Assembly (NCBI GenBank): GCA_937901265.1
Contig: CALCHA010000172.1
Span: 1-13,694 of the forward strand
Direction: 5' to 3'
DNA length: 13,694 bases
From: an uncultured Phycisphaerales bacterium
GTDB lineage: Bacteria; Planctomycetota; Phycisphaerae; WQYP01
Positions 2,735 through 13,694 of the stretch are shown piece by piece (the stretch's first letter is position 1; each line of letters begins with the position of its first letter). The notes below the pieces were generated by a model that was not told where the DNA came from, did no database searches, and worked only from the letters and a program-made list of their open reading frames with translations. Both the position numbers and the translations under genes were made by a program.

Positions 2735-3475
2735 TCAGCCCGCGTCGATCGCCAGTCGCCGGCCGCCGGGGAGCAGATGGGCCCGCAGGGCGGCGGAATG
2801 GCCCGCCGCGGAGTAGGGCAGGACCGCCTGGGTGCCCTGTGCATGGCCCATGAGAAAGGTGGCGGGTCCGGCGGCCAGCCAGGGATCGGTCATCGGCGCG
2901 CGCTGCCGCCCGATCTGGCGGGGGGAACCGGTCCAGGAGGAGGGCTCGATGATGACAGCCTCGCAGGCCAGCGGGGGGAGCAGGCCGCCGCCGCGGCGCT
3001 GCGGTCCGACGGCGAGAATGACCAGTCGCTGGCCGGCATCGGAGGGGAGGGCATGACAGAACAGGACCTGCATTCCGTCGGGCAGGAGGTAGCCCATGTA
3101 GCGGTTCAAGGCCGCGAGGCTGGGGGGATCGCCGATGCCTCCCGGCGGGACGAGATGGGGCGGCAGGGGGATGCAGTGGTCGTCGGACTCGGGCAGGGAG
3201 GGATCGTCGTTGTCATCGCCGAAGTTTTTCATGGCGGCGACGGTGAGGGCTCGGAGGATCGGAGTGGTGGTGAATGCGGGCTCATCGCGATGCCAGGTGT
3301 TGGCGAGCGCGCCGTGCTGGTAATAGAGCATGGCCCCCTGGGAGGGTTGGCGGAAGATGGCGATGGCGAGCAGGGCCACCACGACGATCAGCACGATGGC
3401 GCCATCGCGCAGGAGGCGGAGCCACCAGGGCGGGCCGGACTTGCGGGGAAGGGGTAAACGGGGGGATTCGGTCAT
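2735..3475 (-). CDS. Single-pass membrane protein of unknown function, divergent from the ECF sigma gene
   Basis: 246 residues. The N-terminus is short and basic (MTESPRLPLPRKSGPP), followed by one membrane segment at about residues 24-41 (DGAIVLIVVVALLAIAIF). The remaining ~200 residues would face outside. That domain has an acidic patch (NFGDDNDDPSLPESDD) and strand-like segments (MGYLLPDGMQVLFCHALP, RLVILAVGP), but matches no family I know. The ATG at 3475 has a perfect GGAGG six bases upstream (complement of 3482-3486). The open frame extends upstream to 3997, but that part is antisense to the sigma gene and is not credible. The gene is divergent from the ECF sigma gene with only 31 bp between starts, so the two may share control. 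A role in sensing or in the sigma regulon is possible but unproven. Confidence 0.7.
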   Translation of the reverse strand: MTESPRLPLPRKSGPPWWLRLLRDGAIVLIVVVALLAIAIFRQPSQGAMLYYQHGALANTWHRDEPAFTTTPILRALTVAAMKNFGDDNDDPSLPESDDHCIPLPPHLVPPGGIGDPPSLAALNRYMGYLLPDGMQVLFCHALPSDAGQRLVILAVGPQRRGGGLLPPLACEAVIIEPSSWTGSPRQIGRQRAPMTDPWLAAGPATFLMGHAQGTQAVLPYSAAGHSAALRAHLLPGGRRLAIDAG

Positions 3476-3506
3476 GACATGCCTCCATGAGGTAAGATGC
3501 AGCGTG

Positions 3507-4115
3507 ATGCCCGCCGGTGACACATGCAATTTCGACGACGCCGACTTTCTCGGTCGTCTGCGCGCCGGCGATGCCGCGGCGTTTGAGACGATGGTGCGCG
3601 CCACCACTGCGCGGTTGCTGGCGACGGCGCGGCGATTTCTGCGGGATGACGGGGCGGCACGGGATGCGGTGCAGGAATCGTTTCTGCAGGCGTTCCGCGC
3701 GTTGCCGGGGTTCGAGGGCAGCGCGGCGCTGGGAACGTGGCTGCACAGCATTCTGGTGCGAAATTGCCTGATGAAGCTGCGTCGGGATCGGGCGCATCCG
3801 ACGGAGCAGATTTTGGACGGGATGCTGCCGAGCTTCGCCAGGGATGGCCACCGGCGCAACGTGGGGCCTGCGTGGAGGAGCGCGCCGGAGGCGGCCATTA
3901 CGGATGAGGAGCGGCAACTGGTGCATGAACGCATTGGGCGGCTGCCGGAAGATTTTCGTAACGTGATCCTCCTTCGCGACATCGAAGAATTGGACACCCG
4001 GCAGGTCGCGGCGCTGCTGGAGGTCTCGGAAAGCGTGGTGAAAACGCGGCTTCATCGTGCCCACCAGGCGCTCCGCGAGTTGCTGGATCCCTCCCTACGG
4101 AAAGGCAGCTTGTGA
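3507..4115 (+). CDS. RNA polymerase sigma factor, ECF subfamily
   Basis: 202 residues, usual length for an ECF sigma factor that directs RNA polymerase to a small stress regulon. Region 2 spans about residues 20-95: GDAAAFETMVRATTARLLATA, then a conserved DAVQESFLQAFRALPGF and a GTWLHSILVRNCLMKLRR segment. Region 4 spans about 145-192: LPEDFRNVILLRDIEELDT, then the helix-turn-helix QVAALLEVSESVVKTRLHRA. The start is uncertain. ATG 3507 fits the family N-terminus and has GAGGTAAG (3489-3496) upstream; GTG 3504 and ATG 3474 are also in frame, the latter overlapping the divergent gene's start. The stop overlaps the anti-sigma start (GTGA), so the two are translationally coupled. A GGGAA (3446-3450) and CGGTC (3469-3473) pair, 18 bp apart, resembles an ECF promoter and could give autoregulation; this is weak. 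Confidence 0.9.
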   Translation: MPAGDTCNFDDADFLGRLRAGDAAAFETMVRATTARLLATARRFLRDDGAARDAVQESFLQAFRALPGFEGSAALGTWLHSILVRNCLMKLRRDRAHPTEQILDGMLPSFARDGHRRNVGPAWRSAPEAAITDEERQLVHERIGRLPEDFRNVILLRDIEELDTRQVAALLEVSESVVKTRLHRAHQALRELLDPSLRKGSL

Positions 4116-4360
4116 CCTGTGAAGCGCTGATCAACCGCTTTCTCGCGGACTATATTGACGGCAGCCTTTCCACCGCGCGGAAGGCCGATTTTCGGCTGCA
4201 CCTGGCGTTGTGCCGGGCGTGCCGCAGGTATGTGGCGAGTTACCGCCGTACGATCCGTCTGGCCCGGGAGGCGGGCGGTTCGGTTCCGGGTGTGGAAAGC
4301 CTCGGCGAGGCGCCGGCGGAGCTGGTGGAGGCGATCCTGCAGGTGACGCGGGGTTCCTGA
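4112..4360 (+). CDS. Zinc-finger (ZAS/HC2-type) anti-sigma factor, soluble
   Basis: 82 residues. A GTG start overlaps the sigma factor stop by four bases. The protein carries the anti-sigma zinc motif: Cys3, then His30-x3-Cys34-x2-Cys37 (HLALCRACRRYV). The amphipathic helix between them (INRFLADYIDGSLSTARKAD) is the part that normally packs against the sigma factor. There is no membrane segment, so this is a short cytoplasmic anti-sigma of the RsrA/ChrR-like kind rather than a transmembrane one. In that family the Cys/His zinc site holds the sigma factor and can release it on oxidation. The next gene, msrP, starts 18 bp downstream, which supports a role in oxidant response. Family and context are strong; redox sensing is inference. 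Confidence 0.83.
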   Translation: MTCEALINRFLADYIDGSLSTARKADFRLHLALCRACRRYVASYRRTIRLAREAGGSVPGVESLGEAPAELVEAILQVTRGS

Positions 4361-4378
4361 TTTGTGAAGGTGCGTCCC

Positions 4379-5344
4379 ATGAATGGCAACATTCCGGCCC
4401 GCGAAATCACGCCACGGGAGACGTTTTTGTCGCGTCGCCGCCTGCTTCAGACGCTGGGCATCGGGGCGTCGGTCGCGGCGACGGGCGGAGTTTACGCATG
4501 GCTGGCGGATCCGGGTCCATCGCCCTACCGCACGTCGGGGCGTGGCCCGCGGGAGGGGGACGGCGGCGGCGCGGCGGTCTCGATGGCGGACACGCTCACG
4601 CCGCCGGAGACCTTCACGCACTACAACAACTATTACGAGTTTTCCACGGACAAGCGCGACCCGGCGCTGCTTGCCGCCGGGTTCAAGCCGCGGCCATGGA
4701 GCGTGACGGTGGATGGGCGGGTTGCGAAACCGCGGACATTGGATCTCGACCAGCTGCTGTCGCTGGCTCCGGCGGAGGAGCGCGTTTACCGGCATCGGTG
4801 CGTGGAAGGGTGGTCGATGGTGATCCCGTGGCTGGGCTTTCCGCTGGCCGCGCTGCTGAAGGCGGCCGAGCCTCTGGCCGGTGCAAAGTTCGTCGCCTTC
4901 ACATCGCTGCTCGATCCCGCGCGCATGCCCGGGCAGAAAAGCAGCGTGTTGCGCTGGCCCTACGTGGAAGGGCTGCGCATGGACGAAGCGATGCATCCGC
5001 TGACGCTGCTTTCGCACGGCGCGTATGGCGAGGCGCTTCTCCCGCAGAACGGCGCTCCGCTGCACCTGGTGATCCCGTGGAAATATGGCTTCAAGGGGGC
5101 CAAGGCGATTGTTCGCATCACGCTGGTCGACACGCAGCCGGCGACGACGTGGAACCTGTACAGTCCCGCCGACTATGGCTTTTATTCCAACGTGAATCCC
5201 AGCATCACTCGTCCGCGGTTCTCGCAGCGGTTCGAAGACCGCCTTGGCGAAACGGTGGATCGCCGCCCCACGCTGGCGTTCAACGGCTACGCCGAGCAGG
5301 TGGCCGACCTTTACCGCGGCATGGATCTCGCCAAGGACTACTGA
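4379..5344 (+). CDS. msrP: Protein-methionine-sulfoxide reductase catalytic subunit MsrP (molybdopterin, YedY-type)
   Basis: 321 residues. This molybdenum-cofactor enzyme of the sulfite oxidase fold reduces methionine sulfoxide in exported proteins, taking electrons from the membrane haem protein MsrQ. A twin-arginine export signal lies at residues 18-43 (SRRRLLQTLG followed by a hydrophobic stretch). The family block HYNNYYEFSTDK lies near 80. The molybdenum-ligating cysteine is Cys141 in HRCVEGWSM. Family blocks YVEGLRMDEAMHPLTLL, LPQNGAPLHLVIPWKYGFKG and WNLYSPADYGFYSNVNP follow. ATG 4379 is chosen because AAGGTG (4367-4372) precedes it by six bases; an in-frame GTG at 4364 would add five residues. 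The spacing to the anti-sigma gene (18 bp) and to msrQ (14 bp) indicates one operon. Full length, with no key residue missing. Confidence 0.93.
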   Translation: MNGNIPAREITPRETFLSRRRLLQTLGIGASVAATGGVYAWLADPGPSPYRTSGRGPREGDGGGAAVSMADTLTPPETFTHYNNYYEFSTDKRDPALLAAGFKPRPWSVTVDGRVAKPRTLDLDQLLSLAPAEERVYRHRCVEGWSMVIPWLGFPLAALLKAAEPLAGAKFVAFTSLLDPARMPGQKSSVLRWPYVEGLRMDEAMHPLTLLSHGAYGEALLPQNGAPLHLVIPWKYGFKGAKAIVRITLVDTQPATTWNLYSPADYGFYSNVNPSITRPRFSQRFEDRLGETVDRRPTLAFNGYAEQVADLYRGMDLAKDY

Positions 5345-5358
5345 CCGTCAGGGGCCGC

Positions 5359-5976
5359 ATGACCACCGCTCGTTACGCCCGGCTGCTGGTGCAGATCAAC
5401 GGTGCTGTGCCCGTGGCGCTGCTGACGTTCGCGGCGTGGCGCGATCGGTTGGGGTACAACCCTTCCGCGTACCTGCTGCGGACCAGCGGGCTGCTGGCGC
5501 TGATTTTTCTTTTGCTGTCACTGTGCGTCACGCCGCTGCGTCGCATCACGGGGCGGAATTTTTTCAGTTTGTTTCGCCGCACGCTGGGCCTGTACGCGTT
5601 TTTCTATGCGTGCCTGCATGTGCTGATGTACTTGTGGCTGGACCAGGGATTCGACCTGCTCAACGTGCCTGCGGATGTCTGGCGACGCAAGTTCATTCTG
5701 CTGGGCATGCTGGCGTTTCTGCTGCTGATACCCCTGGCGGCCACCTCGACGGCGGGGATGGTGAAGCGGCTCGGGGCTGTGCGGTGGAAGCGTCTGCACC
5801 AGCTGGTTTACGTTGCTGCGGCGGCGGGGGTGATTCACTATGCGCTGCGGGCCAAGGTTCTGGAAACGCAGCCGATGCTGTTTGTTGTTGCGGCGGGGGT
5901 GCTGCTGGGATTCCGCGCGGTGTGGGGGATTGGGGGTGCGAGCCATTCTCGGAAGTCCGCGGGGCGGGTTGGATAG
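5359..5976 (+). CDS. msrQ: MsrQ, haem-binding membrane subunit of the MsrPQ system (ferric-reductase-like)
   Basis: 205 residues, nearly all in about six hydrophobic segments (roughly 9-27, 42-60, 75-94, 112-130, 148-163, 169-188). It passes electrons from the respiratory quinone pool or flavin donors through b-type haem to MsrP. Candidate haem-ligand histidines are His87 (FYACLHVLMY), His147 (WKRLHQLVYV) and His160 (GVIHYALRAK). The motifs LGYNP near 31-35, RRITGRNFF near 61-69 and the S-TAGM-KRLG-WKRLHQL stretch are typical of YedZ/MsrQ. AGGGG (5350-5354) sits five bases before the ATG. It is the last gene of the sigma/anti-sigma/msrP/msrQ block. The polar C-terminal tail (GGASHSRKSAGRVG) is short. 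Confidence 0.92.
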   Translation: MTTARYARLLVQINGAVPVALLTFAAWRDRLGYNPSAYLLRTSGLLALIFLLLSLCVTPLRRITGRNFFSLFRRTLGLYAFFYACLHVLMYLWLDQGFDLLNVPADVWRRKFILLGMLAFLLLIPLAATSTAGMVKRLGAVRWKRLHQLVYVAAAAGVIHYALRAKVLETQPMLFVVAAGVLLGFRAVWGIGGASHSRKSAGRVG

Positions 5977-6140: not shown

Positions 6141-6153
6141 TGGGTGGATCCAA

Positions 6154-6206
6154 GGGCGATGGAGTTCGCCTGAACCGCTTCCACCCGGAAGCTGATGACT
6201 CCTGCC
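6154..6206 (+). promoter_or_regulatory. Fluoride riboswitch aptamer (crcB motif)
   Basis: The sequence opens GGGCGATGGAGTTCGCC and closes GAAGCTGATGACTCC, which fits the crcB-motif RNA that binds fluoride with magnesium ions. P1 is GGCG (6155-6158) with CGCC (6167-6170). P3 is GCTTCC (6177-6182) with GGAAGC (6187-6192), capped by ACCC. The pseudoknot is GGAGT (6161-6165) with ACTCC (6198-6202), matching the family, where the loop pairs with the 3' flank. The conserved GAUG before the 3' pseudoknot strand is present (6194-6197). The gene directly downstream is crcB, the classic target, so the sequence and context agree. It is expected to switch expression on when fluoride is present. Confidence 0.92.
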
Positions 6207-6223
6207 CGCGTCGGCGGCAGGAG
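6199..6223 (+). promoter_or_regulatory. Switching hairpin that overlaps the riboswitch pseudoknot
   Basis: CTCCTGCC (6199-6206) can pair with GGCAGGAG (6216-6223), eight bases, and GC/GC (6208-6209 with 6214-6215) can extend it inward. The 5' arm uses four of the five bases of the pseudoknot strand (6198-6202). The fluoride-bound aptamer and this hairpin therefore exclude each other. It has no T-tract, so it is not itself a terminator. It most likely relays the ligand state to the terminator at 6241. Confidence 0.65.
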
Positions 6224-6288: not shown

Positions 6289-6666
6289 GTGAAACATGCC
6301 GTTGTTCAGTACCTTCTGGTGGGAGTGGCCGGCGCCCTGGGGGCGATGACGCGGCTGGGGATCTCGCAACTTTTCGCGCGCACGGCGTTTCCGATCGGAA
6401 CGCTGCTGATCAACATCACCGGCAGCTTTCTTCTGGGCTGGTTTCTTACTTATGCCGGGGCGCGATTGGGGATCTCGGACCACGTCCGCATCGCCATTGC
6501 CGTCGGATTTATCGGGGCGTACACCACCTTTTCCACCTTCACGTATGAGTCGATGCGGATGATCGAGGATGGAACGTTCGGGCGGGCGTTGTTGTACATC
6601 GGGAGCAGCCTGCTGTTGGGCCTGCTGGCGGTCAGCGTGGGCATTTTGGTCGGGAGGCACACATGA
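6289..6666 (+). CDS. crcB: Fluoride ion channel CrcB/Fluc
   Basis: 125 residues, normal for the family. Four hydrophobic segments form a dual-topology dimeric channel in the inner membrane that lets toxic fluoride leave the cell. Family signatures are all present: GVAGALGAMTRLGIS (12-26, with Arg22), IGTLLINITGSFLLGW (36-51, with pore Asn42), and GFIGAYTTFSTFTYES (73-88, with the TTFSTF track that holds sodium and the fluoride-lining Phe residues). GTG 6289 is the start: GGGGAG (6277-6282) lies six bases upstream, while the nearby ATG 6296 is out of frame. Expression is controlled by the fluoride riboswitch and terminator just upstream. Its stop overlaps the next start (ATGA), so it is translationally coupled to the DUF190 gene. 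Confidence 0.95.
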   Translation: MKHAVVQYLLVGVAGALGAMTRLGISQLFARTAFPIGTLLINITGSFLLGWFLTYAGARLGISDHVRIAIAVGFIGAYTTFSTFTYESMRMIEDGTFGRALLYIGSSLLLGLLAVSVGILVGRHT

Positions 6667-7463
6667 GGATTCCCATCCAGCGGGAACTGGAGGGGGAGCG
6701 CGTGCTGGTGCGGTTCTATCTGCTCACGACGGATGAAGCGCACCGCGCGCCGGCCTACGAGCGGCTGGTGCAGCATGCCGAGAAGGCGGGGCTCGCGGGG
6801 GCGACCGTCCTGAAGGGAATTTATGGCTTTGGCGCGCGAGGGATTGTGAAGCCTTCGGCATGGCACATGGTCAACTCCCTGCCGGTCATCGTTGAAATGG
6901 CCGACGACGCTCCGCGGCTCGAAGCGTTTCTGGAGGGGCCCGCGGCCATGCTTTTGCCGCGGATGATGGTGACCTTTGAGCGCGCCGCCGTGATGTTTTA
7001 TCGCCATCGCCGCAGCACCGGGCCGCGGCCTGTGCTGGTGGTCCCGCGGGCGGTGCCGGACCTTTCCACGCTGCCTCCCGTTGATGAAGGAAATCCGATG
7101 AAAAGTAGCGAAGCGGGTGTGCTCCTGCGGGTGTTCGTCGGCGAGTCTGATGAGGCTGAGGGACGCCCGCTCTATGAGGTGATAGTGGCCCGCGCCCGGG
7201 CGCTGGGATTGCGCGGCGCGACGGTGCTCCGCGGGTCGATGGGGTTTGGCGCCAACAGCGTGCTGCACACCACCAAGGTCCTGGGGCTTTCCAGCGACCT
7301 GCCGATCATCATTGAGCTGGTCGATTCTGAAGCGCAGATCGCACGGCTTTTGCCGGAGCTCGAGCCGCTGGTTCCGGAAGGGATGATCACGCTGGAATCG
7401 GTGCGTATCGTGCTGTATCGCCCGGGCGAGGCGGCGGCGCAGGTGAGCGGGCAGGCGTCCTGA
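6663..7463 (+). CDS. Tandem DUF190 protein (two PII-like domains), fluoride-operon partner
   Basis: 266 residues made of two DUF190 domains: residues about 4-118 (LVRFYLLTTDE..., ATVLKGIYGFGARG, LPVIVEMAD) and about 148-258 (LLRVFVGESDE..., ATVLRGSMGFGANS, LPIIIELVD). Each carries the family's GATVL(K/R)G..GFGA core. DUF190 has a PII-like ferredoxin fold and is often found next to crcB; its role is not settled, perhaps sensing or modulating the channel. Single-domain proteins of about 110 residues are usual, so this is a duplication fused in frame. An in-frame ATG at 7098 has AAGGA (7087-7091) six bases upstream, so the second domain (121 residues) may also be made alone. The start ATG 6663 overlaps the crcB stop. 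Confidence 0.88.
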   Translation: MRIPIQRELEGERVLVRFYLLTTDEAHRAPAYERLVQHAEKAGLAGATVLKGIYGFGARGIVKPSAWHMVNSLPVIVEMADDAPRLEAFLEGPAAMLLPRMMVTFERAAVMFYRHRRSTGPRPVLVVPRAVPDLSTLPPVDEGNPMKSSEAGVLLRVFVGESDEAEGRPLYEVIVARARALGLRGATVLRGSMGFGANSVLHTTKVLGLSSDLPIIIELVDSEAQIARLLPELEPLVPEGMITLESVRIVLYRPGEAAAQVSGQAS

Positions 7464-11843: not shown

Positions 11844-13022
11844 ATGCCCGACGCCTACACAGTTCTCGCCCGCCGCTACCGCTCCCAGACGTTCGATGAA
11901 CTCGTCGGGCAGGAAGCGATCGCACAGACGCTCAAAAACGCCATCAAGTCCAACCGGGTCGCCCACGCGTTTCTCTTCACCGGCACGCGCGGCGTCGGCA
12001 AGACGTCCGCCGCCCGCATTCTGGCGAAGGCGGTCAACTGCCCGCACCGCACGCCCGAGGGCAACCCCTGCGGCCAGTGCGATACGTGCAAGGCCATCGC
12101 CCGCGGCGAAGACATGGACGTGATCGAGATCGACGGTGCCAGCAACAACTCGGTCGACCAGATCCGCGAGCTGCGGCAATCCGCCGGCATCCGCCCGTCG
12201 CACTCCGAATTCAAAATCTACATCATCGACGAAGTGCACATGCTCTCGACGGGGGCGTTCAACGCGCTGCTCAAAACGCTGGAAGAGCCGCCCGCGCACG
12301 TGAAGTTCATCTTCGCCACCACGGACGTGCACAAGGTTCCGGCCACGATCATTTCGCGGGTGCAGCGTTTTGACTTCAAGAATATCGCGACGCAGCGCAT
12401 TGCCGAGCACCTCACGGAGATCGTCAAGGACGAACAGGTGCAGGCCGACGCCGACGCACTGCACCGCATCGCCCGCCTGGGCAACGGCAGCATGCGGGAT
12501 GCGCTTTCGATTCTCGACCGCGTGCTGTCCCTGGGCGAAAAACACATCACCGACAAGATTCTCGAAGACCTCCTGGGCAAGCCCCCCACCGCCGCCATCG
12601 GCCAGCTTGTGGACGCCATTTCCCAGTCCGACGCGGCCGCGGCCATCACGCGGGCGGATGCGCTGCTGAAGGAAGGCATGGGCGTGGAAGGGGTGCTCTC
12701 GGAGCTCATTGAATTTTTGCGCAACCTCATGCTCGTGGTGACCTGTGGCAACGACACGGACCTGCTCGACGTGCCGACCGAAGCGCGCTCCACGTTCACG
12801 GCCCTCGCCGGCCGTTTTGACGCCGCGACGCTGGTCCATCTGATCACGCTGTGCGAGCAGACGCTGCGGGCGTTCAAGGCCTCGACGATGCACCGCCCGC
12901 TGTTCGATGCGCTGATCGTGCGACTGTCGCTGAGTGAGCAGTTCAGCTCGATCCGGCAACTGCTGGCCGGGAACAACGCGAACGCCTCGACCCCGCAACT
13001 CGCGGGTCAAAAAAAAAAGTGA
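11844..13022 (+). CDS. dnaX: DNA polymerase III clamp-loader subunit DnaX, gamma-type product in the genomic frame
   Basis: 392 residues. This is the ATPase subunit of the clamp loader that opens and loads the beta clamp. Walker A is GTRGVGKT (47-54). The zinc site is Cys66, Cys76, Cys79 and Cys82. Walker B is IYIIDEVHM (125-133), and the sensor/arginine-finger region is FATTDVHKVPATIISRVQRF. The usual SRC triplet is SRV here, with the arginine kept. The lid domain includes NGSMRDALSILDRVL. Domain III (about 240-370) has GVLSELIEFLRNLML and ends near LFDALIVRLSLSEQF. The frame then reads QKKK and stops at TGA 13020-13022, inside and just after a run of ten A. That leaves out the tau-specific domains, which continue in another frame (see 13018-13694). 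The start ATG 11844 gives the classic N-terminus YTVLARRYRSQTFDELVGQE. No Shine-Dalgarno; TATAAT lies just upstream. Confidence 0.93.
   Translation: MPDAYTVLARRYRSQTFDELVGQEAIAQTLKNAIKSNRVAHAFLFTGTRGVGKTSAARILAKAVNCPHRTPEGNPCGQCDTCKAIARGEDMDVIEIDGASNNSVDQIRELRQSAGIRPSHSEFKIYIIDEVHMLSTGAFNALLKTLEEPPAHVKFIFATTDVHKVPATIISRVQRFDFKNIATQRIAEHLTEIVKDEQVQADADALHRIARLGNGSMRDALSILDRVLSLGEKHITDKILEDLLGKPPTAAIGQLVDAISQSDAAAAITRADALLKEGMGVEGVLSELIEFLRNLMLVVTCGNDTDLLDVPTEARSTFTALAGRFDAATLVHLITLCEQTLRAFKASTMHRPLFDALIVRLSLSEQFSSIRQLLAGNNANASTPQLAGQKKK
13009..13018 (+). other. A10 slippage site in dnaX
   Basis: Ten consecutive A bases in roughly 70% GC coding sequence, at the junction between the gamma and tau parts of dnaX. 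As written, the frame reads CAA AAA AAA AAG TGA and stops. With nine A (or twelve) it reads CAA AAA AAA AGT GAC and continues into the tau domain. With eleven A it reads GTG ACA CCG AGC TGA and stops four codons later. Runs of nine or more A are known sites of RNA polymerase slippage, and Thermus thermophilus dnaX uses an A9 run this way. Confidence 0.82.
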
Positions 13023-13694
13023 CACCGAGCTGAGCGTCGCGCCCGGGGCGCAGCACGACATCGACCCCGCCGCCGCCGCCGCCGTTCTGGGGACACCGCC
13101 GCAGGAAGCCGCGCTGGATATTCCCGAAGGGGACGAGGAGAACATCTACGAAGTGATGAAGGCGCACATGCGTCGCAAGCAGGAGGAGCTGGACGCCAAA
13201 AACGCCGCCGCCCGCCAGCAGGCCCGCGCGCAGTCGCGCAGCGCTTCTCCCACCGGCCAAGCCGCCCCGGCGCGCCCGGCCGCGGAGATCGTGGCCGACC
13301 CGGGCGACCTCCCCGCCGTGTGGGCCGCCACCCGCCGCTGGCTTTCGGCCAATGCGAGTTACCTCGAGCGCGTGCTGGGCCACTGCTGCTCGGTCGCCGC
13401 TCTTGATCCTGGCGAGGGCGAAGTGACACTTCTGGTCCCCGCGGTGCAGCGGGGATTCACCAGCGAGCGCGCCCGCGTGAAAATCGAAGAAGCCCTGCGT
13501 GCGGTGACCCGGCTCCCCCTGAAGCTGGCGCTGGAATTCAATGAAGCGGCCACCCACGCGCCGCCGCCCTCCGCCAACGCCCCTGCCTCCGCCGACCCGC
13601 GCGTCCCGCCGGAGATCGTCGAAGCCGTCAAAGCTCAGCCGCTGATCAAGGAGCTGATGAAGCGTCTCGACGCCACGGTCGTGCAGGTCGAACT
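13018..13694 (+). CDS. dnaX: DnaX tau-specific C-terminal region, +1 frame, runs off the window
   Basis: 225 codons without a stop, continuing past the right edge, in the +1 frame relative to the gamma reading. It starts SDTELSVAPGAQHDIDP, a flexible Ala/Pro/Asp linker. A charged helix follows (ENIYEVMKAHMRRKQEELDA), the region in the position of the DnaB-binding domain, then a second Ala/Gln/Pro linker. Next comes a folded domain beginning AVWAATRRWLSANASYLERV, with strand EGEVTLLVPAVQRGF and helix ARVKIEEALRAV. This fits the C-terminal tau domain that binds the polymerase alpha subunit. The visible end is LIKELMKRLDATVVQVE. It has no start of its own and must be joined to 11844-13017 by slippage at the A10 run, or the run is really A9. 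Tau would be at least 616 residues. Confidence 0.85.
13039..13051 (+). other. GC hairpin downstream of the dnaX A10 run
   Basis: GCGCC (13039-13043) pairs with GGCGC (13047-13051) around CGG. It starts 20 bases after the last A, which is further than the 5-8 bases usual for a ribosomal frameshift stimulator. It may be chance in GC-rich sequence. Confidence 0.3.

Follow-up and report, generated by a model that had tools for sequence, protein, structure and literature searches.

The stretch of DNA analysed here (the window) comprises 13,694 nucleotides (nt) of contig CALCHA010000172.1 from an uncultured Phycisphaerales bacterium and holds about the first 617 codons of dnaX, the clamp-loader gene of the bacterial replicase, which is incomplete at the window end. 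Within this gene, a run of ten adenines (A10) sits in the linker that joins the gamma and tau-specific parts. We consider it likely, with a probability of roughly 0.77 and judging from sequence, that the run is a conserved homopolymer slip site at which RNA-polymerase slippage makes tau from a gene that templates gamma. The run and its flanking stops are conserved, the tau part is constrained, and relatives with both arrangements, tau-templated and gamma-templated, were found. The elements of the site are as follows.

11844..13022, + strand: dnaX open reading frame (ORF) of gamma length, 392 codons plus TGA, containing the ATPase and domain III.
13006..13694, + strand: tau-specific frame, +1 relative to gamma, with no stop over 229 codons to the window end.
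13009..13018, + strand: A10 slippery run, with a C-A10-G core at 13008-13019.
13020..13022, + strand: gamma TGA of the templated A10 frame, read from the sequence and from virtual run lengths.
13031..13033, + strand: TGA of the other non-tau frame (A8 and A11 transcripts), read from virtual run lengths.

A first-pass annotation, made from the sequence alone, had named the gene dnaX, and two curated models bore this out, TIGR02397 (dnaX_nterm) scoring 440 bits (cut-off 250) and NF004046 scoring 489 bits (cut-off 400). The Pfam domains PF13177, PF22608 and PF12169 were found in the gamma ORF. The same annotation had described an ATPase frame that stops right after A10, a tau frame in +1 that stays open to the window end, and wrong frames that both stop within five codons (TGA at 13020 and TGA at 13031); these coordinates proved exact, the frame from the ATG at 11844 ending CAA AAA AAA AAG TGA. 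Its claim that deletion of one A or addition of two gives tau was reproduced with virtual run lengths, where A9 and A12 led to tau, A10 and A13 to the stop at TGA 13020, and A8 and A11 to the addition of V-T-P-S and then the stop at TGA 13031.

The tau frame was located by homology. A profile of the tau-specific parts of 21 tau-templated genes of the same family matched the +1 frame of the window with an E value of 1.1e-19, and a class-wide C-terminal profile matched the same frame with an independent E value of 1.5e-12. Tau was likewise found in the +1 frame in G007, a genome of another genus, and in the −1 frame in the sister genome G009. For the tau-specific part of this trio (three pairs), the ratio of nonsynonymous to synonymous differences per site (pN/pS, quoted instead of the corresponding substitution-rate ratio dN/dS, as dS is near saturation in the trio) was 0.47-0.51 in its own frame versus 0.76-1.14 in the wrong frames. 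This pattern indicates that the tau part is kept under selection in its own frame. Measured start to start, the tau stop lies 6 nt upstream of the next ORF (MFDQLKAL...) in G007 and 46 nt upstream in G009, and a similar ORF (MFDSLKSL...) was present downstream of tau in both tau-templated relatives inspected.

Relatives were surveyed in a first sample of 155 dnaX loci, one per genome, from the class Phycisphaerae, going by the labels of relatives (the NCBI labels of G009 and G007 read Phycisphaerales, Phycisphaerae, Planctomycetota). The sample comprised the 146 genomes that matched among 148 evenly drawn in a class search, which were at least 90% complete with the exception of the window's own genome, 8 further family members and G037, whose locus (L245) was kept in the 155 but ends upstream of the slip site. 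A second class search covered 397 genomes, its loci being among the matches listed. G013, G131 and G020 (no match) and G015 (dnaX of 158 residues only) are not in the sample. An extension of 51 loci, partly selected for short open frames, brought the total to 206 and was not used for rates; in families f18 and f10, 30 loci were taken from 42 listed matches, and 80 named loci were looked over and excluded from the counts. A gene was classed as tau-templated when the templated frame was open for at least 40 codons beyond the run, a threshold that we set ourselves. The tau frame was also checked with the C-terminal profile, which is independent of open-frame length and agreed with the frame category for every one of the 20 first-sample genes that template gamma and for 103 of the 104 that template tau, the profile itself having been built from 101 of the latter. 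Related genes are not independent, and the survey counts therefore overstate the number of separate observations.

Homopolymers of this length proved to be rare away from the junction. Only four tracts of A10 or longer were present in the 3.41-Mb draft genome, both strands counted, two of them at contig ends, one an A12 between converging ORFs (by a mechanical ORF list) and one in dnaX, the only such tract seen within a gene. The first 345 codons of the 155 related dnaX genes (160,425 nt) contained no A or T run of nine or more. Of the same 155 genes, 124 carried an A run of this length at the gamma/tau junction (A10 in 92, A9 in 32), at a median codon position of 388 and between codons 365 and 420 in 122 of the 124. 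In the window dnaX, AAG accounts for 12 of the 16 lysine codons upstream of the run, yet the run itself is unbroken. A chance homopolymer is ruled out by this genomic rarity together with the junction-specific conservation across the 155 genes, and the run is probably not, as judged from these sequences, an assembly error either.

Conservation of the flanking stops, which the first-pass annotation had proposed as a test, was also observed. Among the tau-templated genes (n = 103), a stop occurs within 9 codons in 83% for the +1 frame, in 87% for the −1 frame and in 74% for both, as compared with 22, 31 and 7%, respectively, after codon shuffling within each gene (maximum for both, 15.5% in 200 shuffles). 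Early stops in both non-tau frames favour gain or loss of A in the mRNA, given that a −1 ribosomal mechanism needs only one of them. RNA-polymerase slippage is also favoured by the run length, which matches the nine A's or T's at which bacterial slippage has been reported (PMC5009743, PMC1088944). The earlier preference for transcriptional slippage of the Thermus type holds as far as sequence can tell. RNA polymerase would slip while copying A10 (T10 in the template) and give rise to mRNAs of mixed A-run length; those with A10, and also those with A8, A11 or A13, would yield gamma, closed by the TGA at 13020 or 13031, and those with A9 or A12 would yield tau. In most of the class the roles would be reversed, the unslipped mRNA giving tau and the slipped mRNAs gamma. 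Slipping itself and its transcriptional nature are what we infer from these patterns, together with the product ratio and a need for both products.

Within the family (the whole order in the genome set surveyed), dnaX was recovered from 26 of 28 genomes, and the site was covered in 25. The alignment of relatives that had been suggested as a check revealed an unbroken run of exactly A10 in 24 of these 25 genes. Tau is templated in 21 of the 25, all with A10 and none with A9, and the junction reads C/G-AA AAA AAA AAT GA. in 20 and AAA AAA AAA ACT GA. in 1. One added A brings these 21 genes to an immediate TGA, and one lost A makes them end 5 to 17 codons beyond the run start. The window genome (G000), G007 and G009 form one branch, with a Shimodaira-Hasegawa (SH)-like support of 95; all three template gamma and have the core TC-A10-GTGA in common. 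G007 shares the frame relation of the window, whereas in G009 the upstream frame differs again, such that tau needs A11 rather than A9. A possible path to the gamma-templated state would be the gain of one A, making A11 of A10, and then a silent change of the last lysine codon from AAA to AAG. Outside the class, tau-templated A10 runs were found at the same place in the isolates Rubripirellula obstinata (L088) and Stieleria tagensis (L093).

Across the class, the product that is templated by default differed between genes. The first sample contained 104 tau-templated and 20 gamma-templated genes with A9 or A10, 11 genes with A7-8 and 20 without an A7 run, the truncated L245 among the last. Over all 206 loci, 127 were tau-templated, 30 needed one more A, 4 needed one A fewer, 18 had A7-8 and 27 were run-less, of which 4 (L245, L277, L335 and L338) were cut off before the site. 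Among tau-templated genes, 31 of 104 carried A9 in the first sample and 33 of 127 after extension. Among the 20 gamma-templated genes, tau lies in the −1 frame, requiring one more A, in 17, and in the +1 frame in 3 (the window, G007 and G039), where one A fewer or two more are needed; the fourth gene needing one A fewer, found in the extension, was that of G299, with a run of A12. The first-pass annotation had called it unusual that the short form is templated. That view has to be narrowed: templating of gamma as such was seen in 20 of 124 A9/A10 genes of the first sample as well as in the two-ORF genes described in 2013 (see below), and the rarity lies in the +1 direction.

An LG+G4 tree built from the 124 genes with A9 or A10 required 13 changes between tau and gamma defaults, at least 9 of which are forced by branches with SH-like approximate likelihood ratio test support of at least 95; a FastTree analysis of the 155 loci gave 12. 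These counts are approximate, given the quick trees, the short tau tail of G039 and the possibility that single cases are assembly errors. Assembly error is unlikely as a general cause because G134, a one-contig genome, is among those with a gamma-templated gene. In one genus, G128 (L236, A9) and G061 (L218, A10) have near-identical flanks, and either the templated product has been flipped by one base or one assembly is in error. In family f7, the sister genera G039 (L025) and G030 (L026) are both gamma-templated, with tau in opposite directions (one A fewer and one more, respectively). Runs longer than A10 were seen in only two of the 161 genes with A9 or more, L309 (G299, A12) and L302 (G403, A11), both gamma-templated and from family f18.

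Several points weigh against slippage by RNA polymerase as the source of tau in the window, or limit the case for it. First, 31 of the 155 genes of the first sample have no A9/A10 run (the A7-8 and run-less genes above), and within the family itself the dnaX of G008 (L019) is without an A7 run, with a frame of 515 codons; this gene retains a tau-like C-terminus in its templated frame. Second, G009 (L003) carries AGGAGG a few bases before A10, in the 20 bases upstream, and needs the −1 direction; the motif would suit a ribosomal −1 shift there. Third, slippage on the Thermus dnaX run yields mainly added A's (PMC6260861), a bias that fits the 17 genes needing one more A better than it fits the window. 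Fourth, the tests applied for ribosomal stimulators missed the E. coli dnaX control, its stem giving a z score of +0.26 and its AGGGAG going unmatched by the motif. Finally, tRNA-Lys, on which an argument made for Thermus turns, was not among the 20 tRNA matches recovered from the draft genome, from which no conclusion is drawn.

In those tests, a Shine-Dalgarno-like motif was found upstream of the run in 6 of 124 genes, versus 3.0% of control windows, and the motif search matched only 1 of 34 gamma-templated genes, that of G009, versus 6 of 127 tau-templated ones. The mean z score of the downstream stem was −0.13 for the 127 tau-templated genes, +0.08 for the 30 needing one more A, −0.27 for the 4 needing one A fewer and +0.12 for 22 family genes. 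Genes needing one more A did not differ from tau-templated genes in either respect (Fisher p = 1.0 for the motif; Mann-Whitney p = 0.36 for the stem). The absence of an excess of stems or Shine-Dalgarno motifs carries no weight, however, because neither test picks up the elements known from E. coli dnaX.

The most probable of the alternatives is that ribosomes change frame on the A run, through a +1 or −2 shift or through sliding, so that an mRNA with a uniform A10 would yield tau. The heptamer A_AAA_AAG of E. coli dnaX is present in frame at the 3′ end of the run, AGGAGG stands just upstream of it in G009, and some class members with no long A run carry the canonical −1 heptamer G_GGA_AAA ahead of the gamma stop, tau lying in the −1 frame. 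A −1 slip in the window nevertheless cannot make tau because a stop follows V-T-P-S; by frame arithmetic it equals A11, with the stop at 13031, and frameshifting of the E. coli type is excluded as the source of tau, as the first-pass annotation had held in noting that only four residues would be added. Early stops in both non-tau frames are the rule in the class, and PMC4363877 describes ribosome sliding in a purified E. coli system as strong on A11 and slight on A9 or A10. Taken together, this leaves a ribosomal origin of tau in the window unlikely.

A true genomic run of A9, the fallback offered by the first-pass annotation, appears less probable still. Tau would then be templated and gamma would arise by slippage, the A10 being an error of assembly or of replication slippage. 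Such a gene would be tidy, with both other frames stopping early, and the 31 tau-templated genes of the first sample that carry A9 give it precedent. Yet the same core and frame relation were found in G007, of another genus and a separate assembly, all 21 tau-templated family members carry A10 and none A9, and gamma-templated genes occur in a one-contig genome as well. The reading of the run as a slip site survives whether the genomic run is A10 or A9. That the tau part is being lost, with gamma alone made and the tau frame decaying, or translated through reinitiation into a C-terminal fragment of its own, would agree with the split of the frames in the DNA itself and with the short tau tails of G039 (63 codons) and of G030 and G124 (82 each), but it is very improbable given that the tau frame is constrained, stop-free over 229 codons and homologous to fused tau in 21 family members.

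If RNA-polymerase slippage makes tau in the window, it could do so through two added A's (A12) or one lost A (A9). Slips on A runs have been described as insertions more often than deletions, the latter being prominent in certain settings, and E. coli RNA polymerase favoured deletion on an A11 tract in vitro (both in the account of PMC6260861). The first-sample split of 17 versus 3 agrees with a bias towards insertion, or with a share of ribosomal −1 shifting among the 17. Directly upstream of the run, a further element was predicted.

12989..13008, + strand: hairpin predicted in the nascent RNA, directly adjoining the A run, with 12992-12996 pairing to 13002-13006 in its stem.

The predicted folding energy of this hairpin was −9.2 kcal/mol (z = −2.8 in a 20-base window, −2.3 in a 24-base window and −1.3 in a 30-base window). 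A different, equally stable hairpin (−9.7 kcal/mol) that ends one base before the run was predicted for G007, and no hairpin was found in the 26-base window upstream of the run in G009, which needs an added A. For windows of 20, 24 and 30 bases, respectively, mean z scores were −1.85, −2.07 and −1.61 for the 4 genes needing one A fewer, −1.07, −0.60 and −0.32 for the 30 needing one more, and −0.32, −0.21 and −0.31 for the 127 tau-templated genes; the 4 were on average the most strongly folded of the 161 genes, with permutation P values of 0.026, 0.0014 and 0.012. This comparison is post hoc, in that three of the four genes prompted the idea, two share ancestry and G299 is weak in two of three windows. 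A hairpin next to the run may promote the loss of a base, which we regard only as a lead. As a general feature of the class the upstream hairpin was rejected: mean folding energy beside the run was −7.9 versus roughly −4.1 to −5.5 at upstream distances of at least 60 nt, but much of this reflects a rise in G+C to 75%, and after dinucleotide shuffling the excess was small (mean z −0.34; paired Wilcoxon p = 0.005). A bolder and less likely reading is that in this lineage a hairpin sets the slip direction and drives loss of one A to give tau, and that direction and default have switched several times between related genera around a run of mostly 9-10 A's.

Slippage-driven dnaX is already known from Thermus thermophilus, where transcriptional slippage occurs at A9 (Larsen 2000, as cited in PMC5009743 and PMC1088944). 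Thermus and the window are alike in having an A9-A10 run on the sense strand of dnaX, close stops in both non-tau frames and two expected products. They differ in that Thermus templates tau and slips to gamma, whereas the window templates gamma; most of the surveyed class has the Thermus arrangement, and a continuous tau ORF of this type, absent from the window, accompanies A10 in 21 of the 25 genes of the family. Two-ORF dnaX genes split at A7-A10 were described in 2013 by Antonov et al., all in the −1 direction, with A10 in 9 of 17 and transcriptional slippage proposed (main text of PMC3711429). As in the window, the gamma part comes first and is templated, with tau made only after recoding; the direction is −1 there and +1 (A9 or A12) in the window. 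The −1 direction was found here in the sister G009 and in 16 others of the first sample. E. coli dnaX, with programmed −1 ribosomal frameshifting, shares A_AAA_AAG in frame, but a −1 shift in the window misses tau. In the IS630 element of Roseiflexus (Penno 2015, as cited in PMC5009743), a stem-loop enables the loss of one base; in the window a stem-loop is likewise predicted directly 5′ of the run, and loss of one base would give the long product, whereas the run there is T5C5 rather than A10, the gene encodes a transposase, and the effect was demonstrated there and is only predicted here.

Searches of the open-access literature, covering listings and the papers cited here, yielded no report of slippage or of two-ORF dnaX for Planctomycetes, subscription papers and the supplement of PMC3711429 lying outside the search; the main text of that paper names Planctomycetes once, in a genome table. 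Added here are the +1 direction with gamma templated, a class-wide slip site and repeated switching of the default. According to a 2016 review, at about 50% frame change a single base change can reverse the templated product, with dnaX as the example (PMC5009743). One bacterial class shows such reversals repeatedly around a run of 9-10 A's, and offers a natural set of variants for measuring the rate and direction of slippage and for testing whether selection holds the gamma:tau ratio constant. A gene caller that works on DNA only would presumably end dnaX at gamma in such genomes.

Other arrangements of dnaX were also observed in the class. Six of the 11 first-sample genes with A7-8 read XXA AAA AAA ... 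stop at the junction, with the gamma stop templated and tau in the −1 frame. G_GGA_AAA_GCC/GCA_TGA, with no A9 run, was found in G027, G036, G053, G063, G122 and G373 (L213, L224, L226, L235, L243 and L274); tau was placed in the −1 frame by profile for G122 (L243) and G373 (L274), and by eye for G027, G036, G053 and G063, which gave no profile match. These genes are probable cases of ribosomal −1 frameshifting to tau, and the route by which two DnaX forms arise seems to have undergone turnover inside this single class.

Elsewhere in the window, a fluoride riboswitch (RF01734, 56.8 bits) was detected at 6146-6211 on the + strand, upstream of the genes at 6289-6666 and 6663-7463. The first of these is a CrcB-family gene (PF02537), which we take to have a fluoride-channel role, and the second contains two DUF190 stretches (PF02641). 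At 4364-5976 (+ strand), a gene with a molybdopterin oxidoreductase domain (PF00174) is followed by a ferric-reductase-like membrane gene (PF01794), a pair that we presume to resemble MsrP/MsrQ. Upstream of the PF00174 gene lie a sigma-70-family factor (3330-4115) and a zf-HC2 anti-sigma-like gene (4112-4360).
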